A stretch of 64,000 bases of DNA. Source: Chaetoderma sp. LZ-2023a (lineage: Eukaryota > Mollusca > Caudofoveata > Chaetodermatida > Chaetodermatidae). This document shows positions 12,691 to 63,769 of the stretch, piece after piece. Below the pieces are notes generated by a model. That model was not told where the DNA came from and made no database searches. It saw nothing but the letters and a program-made list of their open reading frames with translations. Each line of letters begins with the position of its first letter. The stretch's first letter is position 1. The stretch is from contig CM067373.1 of assembly GCA_034401795.1 (NCBI GenBank), positions 88,435,448 to 88,499,447 on the forward strand, read 5' to 3'. A program made the position numbers and the translations under genes.

Positions 12691-14335
12691 TTGTATCATT
12701 CAAAGCAGCCTGTATCATTCAAAGGGGCCTGTATCATTCACACGGGCCTGTATCATTTAAAGCAGCCTGCATCATTCAAGGCGGCCTGTATCATTCAAAG
12801 CAGCCTGTGTCCTTCAAAGGGGCATGTATCATTCAAAGCGGCCTGTATCATTCAAAGGGGCCTGTATCATTCAAAGGGGCCTGTATCATTCAAAGTGGCC
12901 TGTATCATTCAAAGCGGCCTGTATCATTCAAAGGGGCCCATATCATTCAAATGGGCCTGTATCATTCAAAGGGGTCTGTATCATTCAAAGCAGCCTGTAT
13001 CATTCAAAGGGGCCTGTATCATTCAAAGCGGCCTGTATCATTCAAAGCAGCCTGTATCATTCAAAGGGGTCTGTATCATTCAAAGCGGCCCGTATCATTC
13101 AAAGCGGCCTGTATCATTCAAAGGGGTCTGTATCATTCAAAGGGGCCTGTATCATTCAAAGGGGCTTACATCATTCAAAGCAGCCTATATCATTCAAAGC
13201 GGCCTGTATCATTCAAAGTGGCCTGTATCATTCAAAGCAGCCTATATAATTCAAAGGGGCCTGTACCATTCAAAGCGACCCGTATCATTAAAAGCAGCCT
13301 GTATCATTCAAAGGGGCTTGCATGTATCATTCAAATGGGTCTGTATCATTCAAAGCGGCCTGTATCATTCAAAGCGGCCTGTATCATTCAAAGCAGCTTG
13401 TATCATTCAAAGTGGCCTGTATCATTCAAAGCAGCCTGTATCATTCAAAGGGGCCTGTATCATTCAAAGCGGCCTGTATCATTCAAAGCGTCATGCATCT
13501 TTCAAAGGGGTCTGTATCATTCAAAGGGGCCTATATCATTCAAAGCGGCCTGTATCATTCAAAGCGGCCTGTATCATTCAAAGCGGCCTGTATCATTCAA
13601 AGGGGCCAGTATCATTCAAAGCGGTCCATATCATTCAAAGCGGCCTGTGTCATTCTAAGGGGCCTGTATCATTCAAAGGGGCCTGTATCATTCAAAGTGG
13701 ACTGTATCATTCAAAGTGGACTGTATCATTCAAAGGGGCCTGTATCATTCAAAGCGGGCCATTTCATTCAAAGCGGCCCCTATCATTCAAAGCGGCCCCT
13801 ATCATTCAAAGCGGTCCGCATCATTCAAAGCGGCCCATATCATTCAACATGGCCCATATCATTCAAAGTGGCCTGTATCATTCAAAGCAGCCTGTATCAT
13901 TCAAAGGGGCCTGTATTATTCAAAGGGACCCATATCAATCAAAGCGGCCCATATCATTCAAAACGACCCGTATTATTCAAAGTGGCCTGTATTATTCAAA
14001 GGGCCCTGTATTATTCAAAGCGGCCTGCATCATTCAAAGCAGCCCATATCATTCAAAGCAGCCTATATCAAAGGGGCCTGTATCATTCAAAGGGGGTCTG
14101 TATCATTCAAAGCGGCCTGTATCATTCAAAGCAGCCTATTCATTCAAAGGGGTCTGTATCATTCAAAGCGGCCTGTATCATTCAAAGCAGCCTGTATCAT
14201 TCAAAGCAGCCTGTATCATTCAAAGCGGCCCATATCATTCAAAGCGGCTTGTATCATTCAAAGCGGCCTGTATCATTCAAAGTGGCCTGTATCATTCAAA
14301 GCGGCCCGTATCATTCAAAGCGGCCCGTATCCTGA
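12691..14335 (+). repeat. 19-bp minisatellite, about 86 copies
   Basis: Tandem array of TGTATCATTCAAAGCGGCC. Most variation lies in the last six bases (GCGGCC, GCAGCC, GGGGCC, GTGGCC, GCGGCCC), with rare one- or two-base changes or short units near 14060. 1,645 bp divided by 19 gives about 86 units. Because 19 is one more than a multiple of three and the unit has no stop in any plus frame, all three plus frames stay open (up to 565 codons) and encode a 19-residue peptide period containing YHSKRPVSFKAACIIQSGL. I regard this as a property of the repeat, not as a gene. GATCAC occurs just outside both ends. Confidence 0.9.
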
Positions 14336-23478: not shown

Positions 23479-23860
23479 GCGGAGCCAAATCTAAATGTCC
23501 TCTTGCACTCCACAATCATAAGGGAAACTCAAACCAAATTTGGGGGAGTTCCGTCCCACAGTTTCATGAGATGAGTTATACTCAATTGGACCTATTGATC
23601 CCTGCCCCGCTCCAATATGGGTGGAGCCAAATCTAAACATTGTCTTGCAAAGCTATTGGTAGAAGCAACCATGTACCCAAGTTGTGTTCCATTAGGCTAA
23701 AGTAGTCCCAAAATATAAGCTGATAAGATTTCCTAAACGCACAAAAGCAATGTTATATTAAGATATAACCAAGTTTTGTAGAGATCAGTGACCTCCATGC
23801 CACCATCCTGTATCTTCTTGGTATAAGGATCAATGTACCCAACTTGTATTCGTTTAGGGG
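23479..23860 (+). repeat. ~150-bp tandem repeat, split by the 763-codon transposon
   Basis: Two units start with GGAGCCAAATCTAAA (about 23480 and 23630) and contain ACCCAAGTTGTGTTCC and TAAAGTAGTCCCAAAATATAAG. The second copy of the latter stretch is cut at GGGGTAA (23863) and continues at 27560 as CCAATCACGAAATATTACC. This gives an empty-site comparison for the transposon between them. Confidence 0.6.
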
Positions 23861-23863
23861 TAA

Positions 23864-26800
23864 TAGTCCAGTCAATCTACGCTTAAATAAGGTTAACCTA
23901 GAACAAATTGCAACAGAAGCTTTTTTGGTTTTATTTGATACTACTGGTCTTCAAGTACCACAAAATAAAAAATTCTTAAAAATTCCACAACGGGAAAGGT
24001 CCTAATTAATGTGATTAAAAATGGCTGCCACATTTTTGTTGCAAGCTAAGGATTACATTTCCTATTAATTTTAGACGCATATAATGTATTTCTAAAAAGT
24101 AAGAAATGGTAGAATGTGATGCTAAGTGATTGAATCTACTAGTAAAAGTGTTGTGCTGTCTCATTGCTAGTGTATTTACGTCACCAGCCCTTAATGGTGA
24201 CGTCACATGTAGACAGGATGCATTGAAGTATTTATACATTATGCTAGAAGCATCCATTTGTAGGAAGTCTATGGCTAAATTGTAGCTAACGGCGGAATTT
24301 ATGCGCATAATGTCTCATATGTGCTCTTTATTGTCAGCAGGTCCTTTATAACGAGCAGAGGGACATTTAACACTTTCTGACTATTATTTTCCGTGAATGT
24401 ACGTTCCGGGCGGAACTTTTTATAAACTTGTTTTCCATATTCATTTCTGTTTTCTCCACACATTTTGTAAAGTTTTCACTTCATCAAGCTTTTCTTTGTC
24501 AAGCTTTGGCTTTATCAAGTCATTCTTCATCAAATCGGCTGAAACAAACAGTGTTTGTTTACTTTATGCACACAGAACCGCTATAGAGCGCTTTCAAGGA
24601 CCTGGTGTCCAGAGCGCATGTACATATGAAAACCCTACACATACATTAATTCACAACACTTTACCCATTACCATATATGAATTACTGTTGAAATATGTAT
24701 GTCATTGTGTCCCATGATAATTAATCATTAATTACATTGTTTTACTTCACCATTTCAACGTCATGGACGAAACAGCAAATGTAGCATGCTGTGCAATTTG
24801 TGGGGAGAGTCTTGACAATGGCAAACCCACATTTGTGATATCATCAAAAGGTATTGCTGGAATAAATGAAGCCAGTTTGACCCATGAGATTGCACCTATG
24901 ACTATTGTAAAAGGGCAAAGATTACATGTTTCCTGTAGGAGAGATCACATTGATAGAACTAAGATCGAAGCAGCCAGAAAAAGAAAATTAGAAAGCAACC
25001 GGCGAAATACCCCATCACCCATTCTCCGCTCACAGGTACCTGAATTCCGATTCAAGGACCACTGCTTTCTATGTGGGACGGCAGTTGAGACAAATAGTAG
25101 GTGTGATGAGAATGATGATGTTTTCAAGGTACGCACATGGGATTGCCAGAAATCAATTATTGCTGCATGTGATGAAAGGCCTGAAGACGATAGTTGGACA
25201 GAAGAGGTTCGAGGACGGGTCATATATGCTAGGGATCTTCTTGCGGTGGAAGCTGTATACCACCAAGTGTGCAGCGTTAATTTTAGAACTGGCAAACAGA
25301 TTCCCATGCGATATAGAAGAACCCCAGTAGATGAACCCAAAATTCCACGTTTGGGCAGACCAGTAGATACATCGAGGGAGGACGCTTTCCTGAAGGTAGT
25401 CAATTATCTGAGGGAAATCGATGATGAACAGACAACTGTAGTTGACCTGGTTAACAAAATGTCAGAATTCTGCACTGAACCTTACAGTGTAAAATTTATG
25501 CGACAAAAGCTTGAGAATCATGTAGGGGAAAGCATAGTAATAACTAATATTAACGATCGTCCAGATGTTGTAACCTTTCGAACAACTGCTGCAAAGATAT
25601 TGCAGACATTTCATGATGCACCAAAGGTGGACGACGAGGAGATAAGAAAGCATCAGATCATTAGAACGGCATCTGCGCTCATAAAAAATGACATCAAATG
25701 TATGCAGACATCAAAAGATGTCTACCATGGGGCAACTGATATCAGATCCTTGGAACATAATTTGGCATATCTGCCAACGACACTTCGCGTCCTCCTAGAA
25801 AACCTTTTAAATGGGGAGTCAAAGGATGTGAAAGTTGCTTCTATTGGTCAGTGCATGATTCAGATGACCAGACCGAGGGTTGTCATTGCACCAATACCAT
25901 TAGGACTTGGAGTACAAATGCATCACCAGTTTGGGTCAAAGTCTTTGATTGAATGCTTGGCAAGTCATGGCTTTTGTGTTTCATATTCAGAGGTGGTCAA
26001 TTTCTCAAAAAGTGCAGCGTGCTTTCCAGGGACTGATATCCCAATGTCTGGACATTTTGGACAATATATTGCAGATAATGTTGACCACAACTTGCGTACG
26101 TTGGATGGACATGGTACCTTCCATGGCATGGGCATGGTCATAGCCGTTACCCCTGAGTTAGCACAGCAACATGTCATTCCACGGCTAGAGTTAGCCAGTA
26201 ATAATGTCCATAATGCAAAAATTGCTATTCACTACTACAAAGCAGTAAAGGGCAATAGGGTACCTTTGGTTTATGATAAACTACCTGTTGTTAGTGTGGC
26301 TGACATTTGGAAACACCTGGATGTAATGTGGAAAGTGTCCTGGCCGTTGCGTCCTAATCGCCCCAGTTGGTCTGGAACCATGCAAGCCATTTGCAAAGGA
26401 GTTCATCCGGGAAAAGCATCAATCCACTTTCTCCAAATGCTAGATATGGATCCAACTGACATGAGTTGTATTTATTCAACCTTGCACTTCATTGCTTCGG
26501 AAAACCAACGTCATGGTTCAACACCCATTGTCACCTTCGATCAGCCACTTTGGTGGAAGGCCAAGACAATCATGGCTCATGAAGGCGAGAGAAGTGATTT
26601 AGTGCAAATAATCTTGATTCTAGGTGGCTTCCACACAACAATGAGCTACCTTGGTTGCATTGGTCACCTCATGCAGTCATCGGGGTTAACAGACGTACTG
26701 GAGTTGGTGTATGCTGAAAATGCTGTAACGCACATGTTGACTGGAAAAGCGTATGCCAGAGCTGTACGTGGACATTTCCTGGTTGATGCAGCACTTAATG

Positions 26801-27556
26801 CAATGGTTCTGTCAACGGCGTATGGCATTCCTATCTTAGAGGTGAGTGAAGGAAATATAGATAATGCAGTAGTGACGTGTGATGATATTGAAGCAGCTCT
26901 ACGCCATTTTGATGTTGTTATCAAATATGACTCTAGACTTGAATCAGTGATATCCGACGATGTGTTTGAGCGGATAAATGAGAAGTTAGAATCAGAGAAG
27001 TCAATGATTGTAAGTAGTCTAACAGGACGTTTATGGGTGAATTTGACGACATAGACGTTGGTCTTGTGTAAAGATAATATGAGTATGTTGGACCTTGCCG
27101 TCCATTGAGAAAATAACGGATGTAACTGTTTGTATATAATAAACCATTACTAAATTCATCATACTGATTCAACAAATCATAAAACTTGGATTAAATTTAC
27201 TTGAATATTGGAAGATTGATAATTGACGTCATGATGACGTCATCAAGAGACGTAGTAACGGATCTACTGTTAGCGGGATGTCATATAGCGATCATATCAC
27301 GAAATAAGTTCTTTGCTATCACTTTTATTTATGTAGTTAAGACATGTTATGGGTCTCCAGTCAAAGATACGTAAGATATTCACCTTAATAATTGGTTTTA
27401 AGTGGTCCTATTAAATTCTGTGAAATAGTCCTTTACCGGGATAGAATTTTTAGGAATTTTTTATTTTCTGGTAGGTGAGGACCAGTAGCATTACATAAAA
27501 CCAAAAAAGCTTCTGTTGCAATTTGTTCTAGGTATATCCCTATAATGACTGGACTA
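23864..27556 (+). mobile_element. Complete 3.7-kb TIR transposon, superfamily unassigned
   Basis: The termini TAGTCCAGTCA and, on the opposite strand at the right end, TAGTCCAGTCA are followed by inverted repeats of about 140 bp. Within these a block of about 45 bp (23898-23940) is nearly identical on both sides, including ACCTAGAACAAATTGCAAC. TAA flanks both ends (23861-23863, 27557-27559). The surrounding ~150-bp repeat is continuous once the element and one TAA are removed. The only large reading frame inside is the 763-codon gene at 24763-27054. A TAA duplication also fits PIF/Harbinger (TWA target), but the protein does not look like HARBI1; a two-base AT duplication cannot be excluded. 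Confidence 0.85.
24763..27054 (+). CDS. Putative transposase, 763 aa, unassigned family
   Basis: A single uninterrupted frame starting in a good context (GTCATGG) and ending at TAG. The N-terminus has two related metal-binding-like modules: C10-x2-C13 with H55-x2-C58, and C101-x2-C104 with H167-x2-C170. A basic stretch (KIEAARKRKLESNRR, about 67-81) lies between them. The C-terminal half has conserved-looking blocks ADNVDHN (437-443), TFHGMGM (452-458), FDQPLWWKA (592-600), LGGFHTTMSYLGCIGH (620-635) and YAENAVTHML (650-659). I recall multicopy invertebrate hypothetical proteins with these phrases, but no assigned function. D441, D593 and E652 could form a DDE/RNase H-like catalytic set; this is inference. 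Position between matched inverted repeats supports a transposase role. It has no introns and no frameshift, so the copy may be young. Confidence 0.85.
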   Translation: MDETANVACCAICGESLDNGKPTFVISSKGIAGINEASLTHEIAPMTIVKGQRLHVSCRRDHIDRTKIEAARKRKLESNRRNTPSPILRSQVPEFRFKDHCFLCGTAVETNSRCDENDDVFKVRTWDCQKSIIAACDERPEDDSWTEEVRGRVIYARDLLAVEAVYHQVCSVNFRTGKQIPMRYRRTPVDEPKIPRLGRPVDTSREDAFLKVVNYLREIDDEQTTVVDLVNKMSEFCTEPYSVKFMRQKLENHVGESIVITNINDRPDVVTFRTTAAKILQTFHDAPKVDDEEIRKHQIIRTASALIKNDIKCMQTSKDVYHGATDIRSLEHNLAYLPTTLRVLLENLLNGESKDVKVASIGQCMIQMTRPRVVIAPIPLGLGVQMHHQFGSKSLIECLASHGFCVSYSEVVNFSKSAACFPGTDIPMSGHFGQYIADNVDHNLRTLDGHGTFHGMGMVIAVTPELAQQHVIPRLELASNNVHNAKIAIHYYKAVKGNRVPLVYDKLPVVSVADIWKHLDVMWKVSWPLRPNRPSWSGTMQAICKGVHPGKASIHFLQMLDMDPTDMSCIYSTLHFIASENQRHGSTPIVTFDQPLWWKAKTIMAHEGERSDLVQIILILGGFHTTMSYLGCIGHLMQSSGLTDVLELVYAENAVTHMLTGKAYARAVRGHFLVDAALNAMVLSTAYGIPILEVSEGNIDNAVVTCDDIEAALRHFDVVIKYDSRLESVISDDVFERINEKLESEKSMIVSSLTGRLWVNLTT

Positions 27557-27559
27557 TAA

Positions 27560-28324
27560 CCAATCACGAAATATTACCTGAGAAGATTTGCTGTGGCTGC
27601 TGCCGTCGGAAAAGTGACACATTTAATGTCTCACATTCTGGCTTCACAGACCGGAGACAAATTTTGCTTTGCAATGATGGACTCGGTTAATGATACAGTA
27701 ATTCTAGTGGTAAAATTTCTAAAATAGTCTTCTTTTCTGCAAATAGACATTTCTCGAAACCACAACCGAAGCCGTTTTTTATGGCTTAGTCATTAAAGTG
27801 TTATATAAATACATGTACTGTACATGTACAAGACCCATGCTGGTCCCGGAAGTATGACGTCAAAATAGCTTACTCAGATCCTGAATGAACATGCTCAGAA
27901 TTCAGAGAAACTATTAACCGTGTTCTAACTATAGACAGAGGTGTAAGATAATAACAATCCCATGCGTGCTCTTGTCACAACTAATGTATCAATATGCCAC
28001 GTTATTTAAAATCAATCCCACAAGCAGGATGATTTTAGTTAGACCCACACGTTCAAGAAATTGTTGAATTTCTAATTTTTCTGGGAAGATAACTCTCGCG
28101 AATGTGGACACATTTTATTTTGTCACTCGTGATGCATGCATACATTCGTTCCAAGATTACCCTCCTGAAATAAATATGGATGCACATGCATGGCTGCCTG
28201 TGCATGAACAGGCCTACGTCAACAACATTCTGTGATTTATAGAATCTCTGATAATGTTTAACCATTTGAACCGGAATGGGAAAAATAAAAAACAATCATT
28301 CACCATGCAAGAAATATTATATTA
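27560..28324. other. No gene; single arm of a family P foldback at 27695-27801
   Basis: After the transposon the old repeat resumes for about 80 bp. At 27695-27801 one arm of family P is present (AGTCTTCTTTTCTGCAAATAG), without its partner. The rest is unassigned. Confidence 0.4.
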
Positions 28325-28415
28325 AATAATTTGAAAATAAATTGACTAGGAACGGTTGATGCACAGCACAGGCAGAAAGAGCTCCAAATCAAATTAGTGT
28401 CAAAATACTCAACAG
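28325..28415. mobile_element. Family T palindrome
   Basis: AATAATTTGAAAATAAATTGACT faces CAAATTAGTGTCAAAATACTCAACAG over these positions. The centre (GGTTGATGCACAGC) is diverged. Confidence 0.55.
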
Positions 28416-28457
28416 CTAAAAACTTGTCATGAAGTTATTATTCTGGGACTTCAGCAT

Positions 28458-28692
28458 TTAACCCTTTGACACATGTATTTGGTCAAAACAATTTCAGTTT
28501 TCTCATAGAAATGTCCATTTGCAGACCAAGAAGACTTCTTTCAAAATTTACCACTGGAATGACTGGCTCGGTTATCGAGCCAATCATTCCAGTGGTAAAT
28601 TTTCAAAAATAGTCTTCTCTTGGTCTGCAAATGGACATTTCCCAAGACCACTGGAGAAGCCGTTTTTTGCTGATATGAGTGTTAAGGGTTAC
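28458..28692 (-). mobile_element. Family P foldback MITE
   Basis: TTAACCCTTTGACACATG at the left and AAGGGTTAC at the right. Arms with GTCCATTTGCAGACCAAG pair across a GGCTCGGTTATCGAGCC centre (about 28563-28579). Confidence 0.8.
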
Positions 28693-29030
28693 ATGGTCAA
28701 TAACATGACATACCGGTACATTACGCCTTTGATCACGAGTAAATGACAACTTCGCATGCTAATGAAATGAAAACATTGAGTGAAAAAAAAATGATTCCGT
28801 GTGTGTGTGTGTATGATGAATAATGAACATGATGTATTTTTAATTACAGTTGATGATACCGAGGAAGGTACACAATGAATGGCTGGCTCTGATCTGTGGG
28901 TCTGTAATAATAACAGAATCGATAGTACGTATATGTACGGCACAATATATGTATATTATTATATTTATACCTACATGTATGTTGCCTTGTTTCACAAACT
29001 AGATGGACTGTGTTCAATGTGTCGAGCCCT

Positions 29031-29229
29031 TTAACCCTCGATTTTGCTTTTTTTTAAATTGCAATTTTCCCAAAGAAATGTCCATTTGGAGACCAAGAGA
29101 AGACTATTTCTAAAAATTACCACTGGAAAGACTGGCTCGGTTATCGGTCTTCTCTTGGTCTGCAAATGGACATTTCTGAAAACCACTGAAAAAACCAGTT
29201 TTTGGCGGGTATGAGTGTTAAATGGTTAA
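29031..29229 (-). mobile_element. Family P foldback MITE, centre deleted
   Basis: TTAACCCTCG left and AATGGTTAA right. The left arm reaches GGCTCGGTTATCGG, but the matching inner right arm is deleted and the text jumps to TCTTCTCTTGGTCTGC, so the hairpin is asymmetric. Confidence 0.7.
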
Positions 29230-40459: not shown

Positions 40460-40475
40460 TACTTTTAGAATTTAT

Positions 40476-40481
40476 ACTCAC
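40476..40481 (-). other. 5' splice site of neurexin exon
   Basis: The minus strand reads ACA, then GTGAGTAT; positions 40480-40481 are the GT. It closes the reading frame precisely after the EGF domain. Confidence 0.85.
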
Positions 40482-41229
40482 TGTGTTCACAACGAGGCCC
40501 TTCGTAATCAGTGTGTGTGCATTCACATATGATGCCATTGTCTGTACTAAGACACACACCACCATTTTTACATGGATTTTCCTGTTCACACAAATCTTCA
40601 AGCGACGTACGGATTCCTTGAAATTCCAGCATATGAGGCCGTATTTGAGATCCATTACAGTCAAGATACAACAGATTTCGAACAGAGCCTTTAAATCGTG
40701 GTTCAAACATTACAGATGGAAGTGCCAGTTTACTAAGCTTTCCGCTATACTCAAGCGGCATTCCACCGATAAATACAGCGCTATTCTGATCATGCTTTCC
40801 AAAATAAAACTCTTTTCCTTGTGAGGATTTAGTTTGAGCAACGCTGTCAACAATCAGAGTGGTCTGCTCCGTATTTCTGCGCAACTCAACTTTGTGCCAT
40901 TGTAAATTGTTCAGAGTCTGACCAGCTGTCAAGATGACGGCGCCATCTCCCAAGTTGAGTCGCAGTCGCAGCACTCCACCAACAAGTTTAATTTCAAAGA
41001 AATCATACAATCCTCCATCATCCGTGTAAAGGAGCAATGCATTCGGCTGATCGGTTTTGAACTCAAATTGTAAAGATCCATTCAAACATGGCTGCCATTT
41101 GTTAAATTTCACGTAAGATCTCTGTGATCCTTCCAGATGGAAGCAGTCACATGTCCGTCGAAGTACGAGCACCAATATAATAAGCATCGATGACATAAAT
41201 GTCTTCATACTGAGCCTTATGGCTGCCAT
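40482..41229 (-). CDS. NRXN: Neurexin, first coding exon (partial gene)
   Basis: Minus-strand exon of about 249 codons plus one base. Start context AAGATGG; a second ATG seven codons later is possible. Residues 1-29 look like a signal peptide (SSMLIILVLVLRR core). Residues 34-191 form a laminin-G/LNS domain with KFNKW, LLLYTDDGGLYDFFEI, WHKVELRR and VFIGGMP. Residues 214-247 form one EGF repeat (CEQENPCKNGG..C...C.C...Y.G..C). This order, LNS1 then EGF1 after a signal peptide, is that of alpha-neurexin, a presynaptic adhesion receptor; the KW and GLYDFF-type phrases fit neurexin LNS1. The exon ends RCEH plus A before GTGAGTAT (phase 1), an excellent donor. The remaining LNS/EGF units, membrane anchor and PDZ ligand lie in exons not seen here. 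Confidence 0.9.
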
Positions 41230-42290
41230 CTTAGCTACTGTGTGCTTGATGTTAACACACTGAACACCGCTGTGTCTATCTTTCCATAACGATTACCAGA
41301 TGTCTATAATAACTATATTAGTACTACAGTTAATTAAGAAATGTTATCCAACAGCTCCAGTAAACATGACCAGAAATGGACATTTACACATTCAGATCAG
41401 ATGTTCAGGAAATGTAGACGTATAAATGTGAGCAGCGTCTTCAATAGATAGAAGAATATACCAGCGACAAGCTAGCCATAGACAGTGAGTACTGGTATAC
41501 ATCTACGGCTGTAGAGCAATGGCAGCAGCAGTCGCTCTCATGTGCTGACACCAAGGAGATCTACAGAACTACACAGCAACCACTGCTATTCCAGAAGAGA
41601 CTGACAGAGGCAATGGATCAATCGGCAATGACCCATCGTAATGGCTGCCACGGCGACTGCAGCAGTAGCAGCAGTAGTACATCACCAGGACCATGTACGT
41701 TGATACCGCTGCGTAGTCGACGATGCTGATGACGTTGAGGACGCCGCGTTTGTGCACACATGATGGGGGATCAATACCTGAAACAGGCCGTCATGATCAA
41801 TACCCGCCTGCAGTCAAAGCCTGTGGAGAGATAAATATTATATGATCACATTATTTAATATAGTTGTTTTAGCTAACACTTGTGCACCAACCATCTGCAA
41901 TATCTGACATTATAATTACAACTGTAGCAATAATGGTTACACAGTTTAACCAATTTAGTCCTGAATACTGTAGTAAGTAAGATTTATAGTATGATATAAT
42001 AAAATATTATACTCCAACTTACTATTTTGAAAGCAATTTGATAAAACATTTTAGGTCAAGTTAAAATATTCCGTCATGATTATTTATATTTATCTTCACT
42101 GAAAGTAAGTTTATAGAAAGTAAGTTTATCCAAGTAGAAAGATTATTCGGAGTGAAAATGGTTGAAGCTGATTATGTACATTACATTACTAGAGATAATA
42201 TTAATGTGGCATACATATATTCATTTATACCCTCTTTAACCCATTAAACATTACAAACATGAAATGACGAATTCTTTACATGTAAGGAAT
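41230..42290 (-). other. Neurexin 5' flank / probable 5' UTR
   Basis: No transposon copy is obvious in the first 600 bp upstream of the start codon, unlike nearly everywhere else in the window. 41500-41720 is rich in GCAGCAG/GTAGCAG. This could be 5' UTR and promoter, or a small upstream exon; I cannot place a transcription start. Confidence 0.4.
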
Positions 42291-43664: not shown

Positions 43665-43905
43665 TTAACCCTCTAAGCCTTGAATTTGTTCAAGAAAATG
43701 TAAATTGTTTCAAAGAAAATGTCAGTTTGCGGACCAAGAGAAGACTATTTTTGAATGCTTAGCACTAGAATGACTGGCTCTGTTATCGAGCCAGTCATTC
43801 CAGTGGTAATTTTCAAAAATAGTCTTCTCTATAAGTCTGCAAATTGACATTTCTCAAGAACACTGTAGAAGCCATTTTTGACTGATATAAGTGCTAAAGG
43901 GTTAA
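43665..43905 (-). mobile_element. Family P foldback MITE, opposite orientation
   Basis: TTAACCCTCTAAGCC to GCTAAAGGGTTAA. The side carrying TTGAATTTGTTCAAG is on the left, so it is reversed relative to the pair before it. Centre GGCTCTGTTATCGAGCC. Confidence 0.8.
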
Positions 43906-46405: not shown

Positions 46406-46535
46406 TGATTGAACAGTAAGTATGTTTTATAGTGGTTAATAAAACTACAGACTAACCCGCAAGGGGGGGGGGTGTCTGTTGGGGGTTGTTATTACATCAC
46501 AAAAACATCTATACCGTTCAATCACTACTTGCTAA
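46406..46535 (-). other. DIRS 2 internal complementary region
   Basis: 46406-46480 is the inverse of the tip at 46013-46090 (TTATAGTGGTTAATAAAAC); 46484-46535 is the inverse of the tip at 52120-52175 (GGTTGTTATTACATCAC). The junction lies in a G-rich stretch where GGTT is common to both tips. Confidence 0.8.
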
Positions 46536-47345
46536 ACCCGTAGATTTGGTCAGTGCCCCACTTACAAACCCTTTGTGGGTGGAGATTTTTAAACAAGGAT
46601 AAAAATTAAACAACTCATACCCAAATGTTACAGACATACAGAATAGAGAAATTGGTGAGATGTGCTTGGTAAATGGTCCTTGGCTTGTTTTGTTAAAATC
46701 GTTATATTTCTTAAAAAGGAGGCCGCTGGGATCTGATCCTTTAAATAGAGAGGTAAAAGTTGATTCATATTTCCAACCTGCGACTTGCATACCATCGTCC
46801 AATGATGAGCCGGCGAAAAGAGCGAAGGAGGGAGCCATACCACAAAGGTCGAGAGCCTTGACATTGGCTAACTTGATCTGACTTGGGGAGGCAATCTCAT
46901 AGCATAATTTTATGGTCTTACAGATCCATCTGGCACCTGTGGCCTTAGAAACTGGTCTAGCCACCTCCTCCGCGTACGCAACCCATAAGTGCGAAGAATC
47001 GGATCTTTTAAAATTGGTACAACGTTTATAGACTTTTAAGGCCTTGACAGGACACCAGAATCTGTCGGACGGCGAAAAAGACGATAAAGATTTAAGAATA
47101 ATAGGTTTGGCTGAGTAACGGTTAGACTGGGTCTTCGATAAAAAATCCCTTCTGAGATATAAAACTAGACCATCCCCAGATTCGATAAATCTGTCTTTTT
47201 CTGCGGAAAGAGCATGAATTTTGGATCTTCTCCTAGCTGAAGTGGCAGCAACAAGGAAAACAGTCTTAAGAGTCAATAGTTTGAGACTGATAGATCCAAT
47301 TGGCTCAAAATGGTGACCTGCCAAAACTTGAAGAACCAAGGCCAA
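46518..47345 (-). CDS. DIRS tyrosine recombinase, catalytically degraded
   Basis: An open frame of 275 codons. Residues 31-46 (LVAATSARRRSKIHAL) give the first catalytic arginine region; FWCPVKALKVYKRC (96-109) and FALFAGSSLDD.MQVAGWKYESTF (174-197, with gaps) are typical of DIRS recombinases. The H-x-x-R box, usually AHDLRGMA, reads ALDLCGMA (164-171), so both histidine and arginine are lost. It should therefore be inactive although the frame is open. The C-terminus overlaps the internal complementary region. The start is arbitrary; homology continues upstream in other frames. Confidence 0.75.
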   Translation of the reverse strand: MALVLQVLAGHHFEPIGSISLKLLTLKTVFLVAATSARRRSKIHALSAEKDRFIESGDGLVLYLRRDFLSKTQSNRYSAKPIILKSLSSFSPSDRFWCPVKALKVYKRCTNFKRSDSSHLWVAYAEEVARPVSKATGARWICKTIKLCYEIASPSQIKLANVKALDLCGMAPSFALFAGSSLDDGMQVAGWKYESTFTSLFKGSDPSGLLFKKYNDFNKTSQGPFTKHISPISLFCMSVTFGYELFNFYPCLKISTHKGFVSGALTKSTGLASSD

Positions 47346-47867
47346 ATTTCAGGAAAACAAAGGCTTAGCCACTGGAGGACGAATATTGCCCAATCCTCTA
47401 ATAAAACCATTGAGAATCTTCAAATCCTTGATATCAGCATTCAGAAGACAAGGAACAGAAGAAGCCAAAGAAATCTATAACCCCTAACGGTGATAGCTAA
47501 TAAATGAAATGAATCGAATAGATATGATTAAAAATCTAACACCTAGGAAATAAAAACAGAATCAGGCAAGAAACCATGTTTTAAACACCATTCTCCAAAG
47601 ATTTAGTAGTCAACCTTTGTACAAATTCGACAGGTCGACTCCCTCCTGGAAGAGACAATGATTTCCTGAGATCTTGAAGAAAATTGATCTCGGAGACCGG
47701 ACACTCAAAAATTCTCCAAACACACAGGATGAAGAATTCTGGATTGGATGAAGCCCCTTACTTGAGCGAGATCTGATGATACTGGGAGAACGCAAGCAAA
47801 ATCCTACCAGAAGATTGAGAAAGGCTACCAATCTGATCCTCTTTGACCAAAAGGGAGCTGCTAGAAG

Positions 47868-55877: not shown

Positions 55878-56089
55878 TTAACCCTTTAACGCTCATATCA
55901 GCCAAAAACGGCTTCTGTAGTGGTCTTGAAAAATGTTCATTTGCGGACAGACTATTTTTGTAAATTTACCACTGGAATGACTGGCTCGATAACCGAGCCA
56001 GTCATTCCAGTGGTAAATTTTCAAAAACAGTCTTCTCTTGGTCTACAAATGGACACATTTAAAAAAGAATTTGTGCCTTAAAGGGTTAA
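55878..56089 (+). mobile_element. Family P foldback MITE, cleanest copy
   Basis: TTAACCCTTTAACGCTC at 55878 to CTTAAAGGGTTAA at 56089. The body pairs ATTTACCACTGGAATGACTG with its exact inverse around GCTCGATAACCGAGC. TTAA lies at both ends, with CCCTTTAA/TTAAAGGG tips. TTAA plus CCC tips are typical of piggyBac-type targets. No ORF. Confidence 0.85.
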
Positions 56090-61800: not shown

Positions 61801-62127
61801 TTAAAAAGTCTAATACTTGGGGAAAAGAAACAGAATCGGGCACGAGACCTTGGTCTGAAAACCATTCTCAAAAAATTTTAAGTCGAAACTTGTAAACTCT
61901 GCGGGTCGACTCTCTTCTGGAAGAATCGATAATAACTGGAGATCTTGAAGAAACCTTATTCTCATAGACTTTAGTTTCGATATTCTCCAAACACACAGAC
62001 TGAAGATTTCTGGGTTTGGATAAAGACAAAGACCTCTTACTTGAGACAGAAGATCCTGGGAGAATGGAAGAAGATGAGGGAAGTCTACCACGAGATCTAG
62101 AAGATCTACAAACCAAATCCTCTTTGG

Positions 62128-63039
62128 CTAAAAAGGAGCTATTAAAAGAATCTCGCAGATTTGTTCTTTGAACTTCTTCAACACTAACGGAATCAAAATC
62201 GTTGGAGGGAATGCATAGGCGAACATTCCTGTCCAGGACTGAGACAGGGCATCCACCGCCAGGGCTTGACTGTCCGGAAAAGGAGACATGTAAGAGGAGA
62301 TCTGAGGATTCAGAGATGTCGCAAACAGATCTACCAGAGGACGATCCATAAGACTGAAAATCGCTTTGACAACCGACCCCTTTAACTGCCACTCTGTGTG
62401 GGCGATTTTGCTGGGACGTGACAGTTGGTCCACAAGAAAAATCAGACTGCCTGGGACATGAGAAGACACTAGAAGAATCTGATTCTTGCGACACCATAAG
62501 AGAAGGTTCCACACTTATAGACAAAGGAGGGATGACCTTGTACCCCCCTGCCTGTTGATATAAGAGACCACTGTCGAATTGTCTGACCGAATCGAGACTT
62601 TGAGACCTATCACAAGATCTGACCATGAAAGGAGAGCCTTCTTGACAGCACACAATTCCAGAATGTTGATTCGAGCTGTCGACTCCTCCAGAGACCAAAG
62701 ACCAGAAAGCGACAGGGAGTCCCAGACCGCTCCCCATCACTCTTGAGAAGCGTCTGTGAAGATAATCGCCTGAGGGGAGGACTTTACCAGTGGAACACCC
62801 ATCAGAAGCAGAGAACGATCTTTCCAAAAATCTAGAAGAGGAATCAAGTGTTCTCTGATGGGAATCTGATGGTAAATAGAGTGTACCGACTGCTTCCAAA
62901 GGGACATTAAATACATTTGGAAGGGTCTTCTCATCAGCGCCGCCCATGGAATAACATTCTCTACGTTGAGCATCACACCTATCACTCTTAGCAGAAATCT
63001 TGCTAAGACCATGGAAGAACACAGGATTTCCATTGCCAC
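62128..63039 (-). pseudogene. DIRS 3 RNase H and following region
   Basis: One frame with stops: MGVPLVKSSPQAIIFTDASQ (62799-62740) is the first RNase H block with its DA aspartate. Then VSSHVPGSLIFLVDQLSRPS (62466-62407) is the last block. PLVDLFATSLNPQISSYMSP and ALAVDALSQSWTGMFAYAFP follow, the usual region between RNase H and recombinase in DIRS. All share frame with the reverse transcriptase piece at 63157-63531. A 495-codon frame over 61868-63355 is out of register with this homology. Confidence 0.75.
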
Positions 63040-63156
63040 TGATAAAGCCTCTATTCTTGGATTTGAGGGGAAGACTAGACCGATCGAAAGAAACGCCTAG
63101 ATGCGTGAAGATTTGAGAGGGACCTAGGCTTGATTTCTTTAGATTTAAAATCCACC

Positions 63157-63531
63157 CTAGGTTGCATGCCAGACTGCAAACCTCTGGAAGAATTCCTGAG
63201 AGAATTGAGTAAGACTTTGCTTTACTAACCAATCGACTATATAAACGTGAGGATGGATAGAATGACGGTGTAAAATTCCTGCCACGGCTGAGACTAGGCG
63301 AGTAAAAAGAAAAGGAGCCATGGTCAGGCCAAAAGGCATGGCGCGAAACTGCCAAACTCGATCTTTGTAAGCAAATCTCAGGAATTTTCTGAAGGAAGGG
63401 TGAATGAGAACATGAAAGAAGGCGTCATTTTGATCGATGGAAAATGACCACATACCCTGATCTAGACTGGAAATGACCTGGGAGATGGTCTCCATCTTGA
63501 CTTGGGAGTAAGAATCATGAGATTTAATCAT
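63157..63531 (-). pseudogene. DIRS 3 reverse transcriptase fragment
   Basis: Reads QVKMETISQVISSLDQGMWS, FSIDQNDAFFHVLIHP (motif A with its aspartate), LRFAYKDRVWQFRAMPFGLT (motif B-like) and HPHVYIVDWLVK. The last should be Y-x-D-D-W-L; the first catalytic aspartate is valine. The upstream fingers region is deleted or scrambled. The domain is typical of DIRS reverse transcriptases. Confidence 0.8.
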
Positions 63532-63769
63532 GTCATACCCCCTTGTTAAATTAAAATTAATGCAGAATTGGATGTTTCAGAATGAATCGAGATCATTACA
63601 TTTTATTAAGATTTAATGACAGGGTAGGAATTCCTACCCTAGGCTGAATGCTCTCATGTATGTATAAGGCCCTGTACCAACAGATCCAAAGAGCCAAGAA
63701 GAGGAGGAGAAGAGATAAAATAGAAGAAAGGGTTGGACCCACCCGGGCAGAGGTCACATCTTCACTCGC

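Follow-up and report, generated by a model that had tools for sequence, protein, structure and literature searches.

A 3.7-kb element of the mollusc Chaetoderma sp. LZ-2023a is very probably an internally deleted, non-autonomous copy of an Academ-type (AcademX-like) DNA transposon

Introduction

Does a transposon with a single long, unassigned reading frame define a group of its own, or does it descend from something larger and already described? This question is raised by a 3,693-bp element (positions 23864-27556) in a stretch of 64,000 nucleotides from the caudofoveate mollusc Chaetoderma sp. LZ-2023a (contig CM067373.1, positions 88,435,448 to 88,499,447), the whole of which is called the window below. 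The original prediction, made from the letters of the DNA alone, regarded the element and its 763-codon gene as intact, took the encoded protein for the transposase, and proposed that it defines or extends a DNA transposon group, for which Academ, Zator and Zisupton/KDZ should be compared first. The present analysis leads to a different answer: the element is very probably a non-autonomous derivative, by internal deletion, of a DNA transposon of the Academ type (AcademX-like), and its gene the front half of a longer one.

Results

The evidence for a deletion comes from the closest relative, P0001, a protein of 1,162 residues with its N-terminus missing, encoded on a 4,073-base metagenome contig and 96.6% identical to the window frame over 447 residues. 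Beyond the motif TGRLWV, P0001 continues for another 716 residues and the window frame for four codons, after which it ends. Right after this break, in a different frame, the window encodes EFDDIDVGLV and a stop, which is the exact C-terminus of P0001 and was found in one of the 236 proteins retrieved. Because P0001 continues where the window frame breaks off, and its last ten residues are kept after the break, the window copy appears to have lost about 2.1 kb, most simply by a deletion of approximately 2,119 nt accompanied by a change of frame. The parent, assuming the codon number of P0001, would have been about 5,812 bp long and would have encoded 1,475 residues. The lost part carries a nuclease domain of FEN1/EXO1/XPG-like kind, whose acidic residues are conserved, as well as the cysteine-rich C-terminus and an invariant glutamate that is predicted possibly to complete an Asp-Asp-Glu (DDE) triad. 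The single unbroken frame is real, and its derivation from the transposase of a DNA transposon is supported; the gene, with some 2.1 kb of coding sequence missing, is not intact, and the idea that its 763 residues make up the whole transposase was not borne out.

The lengths of the relatives were compared in two protein searches. The first, covering proteins of up to about 1,335 residues, listed 120 matches, 27 of which reach window residue 740; 18 of these 27 extend at least 100 residues further, six extend 25-99 residues, and three (P0011, P0049 and P0050) stop at most 25 residues past that point. The second used residues 300-1162 of P0001 as the query, a C-terminal one that consequently favours proteins having that part, and the best 120 of 408 relatives were listed. 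Among the 116 relatives new to this listing, 77 are 1,400-1,600 residues long, and every one of those reaching residue 740 (90/90) extends at least 100 residues further. Likewise, in alignment A1, the rows of which were picked by hand, all 23 other rows have more than 600 residues past the break.

The named relatives among the matches listed include Holothuria, Porites, Mytilus, Patella and Nymphon, in agreement with the original prediction, which mentioned similar multicopy hypothetical proteins from marine invertebrates. One family member, P0064, is deposited under the assembly of a bacterium, Sedimenticola, and may be animal DNA within that assembly. Searches with tblastn gave no match for the window frame in phages and none for the family protein P0121 in plasmids, and pattern scans of viral and prokaryote genome contigs, made with few conserved words only, confirmed no relative.

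With regard to domains, the window frame alone returned nothing useful from Pfam or from PDB sequences, a structural model of it had no Foldseek match at E <=0.001, and an NCBIfam search with five proteins was equally unproductive. A TetR regulator that came up in a PDB profile search (E 0.022) was taken as a chance match. Across 24 family members searched against Pfam at a cut-off of E 0.1, the sole recurring match was DUF6589 (13 members, best E 1.3e-06), on which a literature search found no paper, and XPG_I was matched by one member (E 0.013). The structural model of P0001, in turn, gave a single Foldseek match at E <=0.001, to T5 flap endonuclease. The putative nuclease domain (P0001 residues 735-1077), clear in the predicted structure, is nearly invisible to Pfam. 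The folds and active-site residues named here are all predicted ones.

The ends of the element are well preserved. Both begin with TAGTCCAGTCA, these outer 11 bp being perfect at 23864-23874 (+) and 27546-27556 (-); one further window site (2480-2490) carries them with one mismatch, for a chance expectation of 0.81 at up to one mismatch. Further inward the arms differ by an indel of about 10 bp and then agree at 86% over 114 columns, including a 39-bp core identical in both, which never occurred twice, at up to three mismatches, when the window was shuffled 100 times. The inverted termini of about 140 bp that had been described are therefore present, in imperfect form, the element's coordinates had been given exactly, and the TAA seen on either side is there. 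No second match within the window was obtained with the element DNA (blastn) or with four family proteins (tblastn) at E 1e-3.

The element lies in the second copy of a diverged host repeat, the left half of which can be laid beside the uninterrupted copy that serves as an empty-site reference (Table 1). Read from its fourth base onward, with exactly three bases passed over, the right flank continues this reference copy without a gap, with 24 matches of 33, and the repeat becomes continuous after removal of the element, as had been proposed. As a control of register, the remaining 25 offsets from -10 to +15 score 3-15 matches of 33, and a score of 24 is attained at two of 63,967 window positions, namely the repeat copy itself and the element junction. 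Direct alignment of the joined flanks with the neighbouring repeat also matches across the junction; BLAST of the joined flanks gave no match spanning it. Of 300 shuffles of the right flank in each test, one attained the score of the joined flanks and 18 the score of the right flank alone, and the case for a 3-bp duplication consequently rests on the register test. Read from the register of the host repeat, the target duplication is 3 bp long.

Table 1. Features of the element and of its insertion site (window positions)
Feature	Position	Strand	Remark
Uninterrupted host repeat copy	23656-23734	+	Empty-site reference
Left half of interrupted host repeat copy	23818-23863	+	35/46 identical to 23656-23701
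Left TAA, 3-bp target duplication	23861-23863
Left inverted terminal repeat	23864-23999	+	Begins TAGTCCAGTCA
Front part of transposase gene, truncated by deletion	24763-27054	+	763 codons without stop; last four (NLTT) outside the frame of the family
N-terminal CxxC/HxxC motifs	24790-25272	+	Residues 10, 55, 101 and 167; possibly zinc-binding
Winged-helix-like region, predicted	25357-25584	+	Residues 199-274
RNase H-like core, predicted	26017-26634	+	Residues ~419-624; D438/D441 and D593
Deletion junction	27037-27039	+	~2,119 nt of the coding sequence of P0001 absent
Remnant of original gene end	27039-27071	+	EFDDIDVGLV-stop, in another frame; identical to P0001 C-terminus
Right inverted terminal repeat	27430-27556	-
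Right TAA, 3-bp target duplication	27557-27559
Right half of interrupted host repeat copy	27560-27592	+	24/33 identical to 23702-23734

Elsewhere in the window, diverged direct and inverted repeats occupy 27657-29196, just to the right of the element, and similar stretches recur, for example near 43770 and at 55904-56020. A 275-codon open stretch at 40465-41292 (-) matches laminin G (Pfam E 1.7e-24) and, weakly, an EGF-like domain; it is probably an exon of a host gene and may resemble the start of an alpha-neurexin. The remains of a retrotransposon lie at 61868-63576 (-), with a reverse transcriptase match (RVT_1, E 5.5e-10) at 63157-63576; at E 0.01 Pfam gave nothing for the adjoining 518-codon stretch, nor for a 276-codon open stretch at 46518-47348 (-). 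At 12692-14331 a 19-bp unit is repeated in tandem in about 86 copies with several frames open, and the long frames there are due to the repeat. Scans of the window for tRNA genes and Rfam families were empty.

Discussion

For the AcademX branch of the Academ superfamily, the works of Kapitonov and Jurka (2010) and of Kojima (2020) are cited in PMC4455052 and PMC10045372, respectively; the nuclease of AcademX elements is of the XPG type. Academ is listed as a superfamily in PMC4455052, with a citation of its 2010 description, and PMC10045372 gives target duplications of 3 or 4 bp for AcademX and of 9 or 10 bp for AcademH, tying these lengths to the nuclease encoded by the former and the helicase encoded by the latter. 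The duplication of the window element falls inside the range for AcademX, and its complete relatives encode a nuclease behind an apparent DDE transposase; moreover, the inferred parent of about 5.8 kb would be near the mean of 5,565 bp reported for curated bivalve Academ elements (PMC10294476). AcademH belongs to the same superfamily by the published account, and differs by its longer duplication and by its helicase; no helicase appeared among the Pfam matches of the 24 members.

Since the 3-bp duplication and the nuclease of the complete relatives fit the description of AcademX, no new group is defined: of the proposal that the element defines or extends a DNA transposon group, the DNA transposon stands and the new group does not, and Academ was a good lead for the first comparison. 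Literature searches on Academ terms found no paper defining AcademX by an XPG nuclease, and the name is given because the element looks like Academ in these features, AcademX having been compared by its published description. Unlike AcademX elements, the window copy itself is without the nuclease, the likely catalytic glutamate and the C-terminus, and we accordingly class it among the family's deletion derivatives and not its autonomous members.

An assignment to Zator or PIF/Harbinger, two other superfamilies whose duplications are 3 bp long, is improbable. The latter has a 3-bp target, TWA, which the TAA found here would suit. Zator, too, makes 3-bp duplications, and it has an ISAzo13-like transposase, according to PMC10045372. 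Neither a Harbinger-type transposase nor an ISAzo13-like family is found in the Pfam matches of the 24 members, in which only DUF6589 recurs, and the relatives have an XPG-like nuclease; in the case of Zator, Pfam could miss a remote link. The duplication of Zisupton/KDZ is 8 bp, as against 3 bp here, and the naming of this superfamily and of Zator as candidates has found no support in Pfam.

Just as doubtful is the thought that the short form was selected as a repressor, its truncated protein binding the ends or joining the full-length protein and thereby reducing transposition. The model for this is the KP form of the P element, which is internally deleted and lowers transposition. Like such derivatives, the window copy has kept its ends, has lost the interior of its transposase gene and encodes an N-terminal part, in which the Cys/His motifs and the winged-helix-like region are retained and the frame is open; the likeness is one of analogy with no claim of kinship, and a repressor effect here is hypothetical. 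Against it, the window frame and P0001 differ at 14 of 446 residues, and the commonest residue of the family stands in the window at three of these and in P0001 at five, which gives no sign of selection in either direction, and window residues 322 and 394 deviate where the others agree (21/21 and 21/22). An Academ counterpart of the KP repressor, a short form that spreads by hitch-hiking and whose protein, with its putative DNA-binding parts and part of an active site, would hold down the full-length Academ elements of its genome, seems to us a long shot.

Slighter still are the chances of a self-sufficient, compact transposon in which the 763 residues would make up the entire transposase of a new group. 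The open frame and the well-kept ends would suit it, whereas the ten C-terminal codons of the long form persist in the window in another frame, the relatives that reach this far mostly extend at least 100 residues further (18/27 in the first listing, and 90/90 in the second search, whose query favours long proteins), and the invariant glutamate and the nuclease fall in the lost part. An assembly error, by which 2.1 kb of a complete host copy was dropped, is very unlikely as well, the clean junction within the gene with perfect coding pieces on either side being also the trace that an ordinary internal deletion leaves.

Returning to the reading as a deleted Academ-type copy, the following course of events may be envisaged. 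A parent of about 5.8 kb would encode a single protein of some 1,475 residues with, in order, the N-terminal Cys/His motifs, the winged-helix-like part, a DDE-type RNase H-like core into which a long stretch is inserted ahead of the glutamate, the FEN1/XPG-like nuclease and the cysteine-rich C-terminus. Judging by its domains, this full-length protein is most likely to bind the inverted ends, excise the element and join it to a staggered target, resulting in the 3-bp TAA duplication, while the nuclease may process flaps or ends. About 2.1 kb would have been lost within the gene either before or after the insertion into the host repeat. The window copy is most likely incapable of moving alone, as the parts for a working enzyme are gone from its sequence; with its ends kept, it could in principle be mobilised by a complete relative acting as a helper.

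What looked like an orphan gene is, on this evidence, the front half of a seemingly known type of transposase, and no new superfamily should be founded on it. The case is also one where the length of a target duplication, 3 bp, was fixed by a diverged host repeat with no recourse to another genome. In this family, where the uncharacterised DUF6589 (13/24 members) is the one recurrent Pfam match, the structure predicted for the long relative P0001 suggests, in a form open to test, how the domains of AcademX-type proteins may be arranged: a winged-helix-like part, an RNase H-like core containing a long insertion, a FEN1-type nuclease and a cysteine-rich end.
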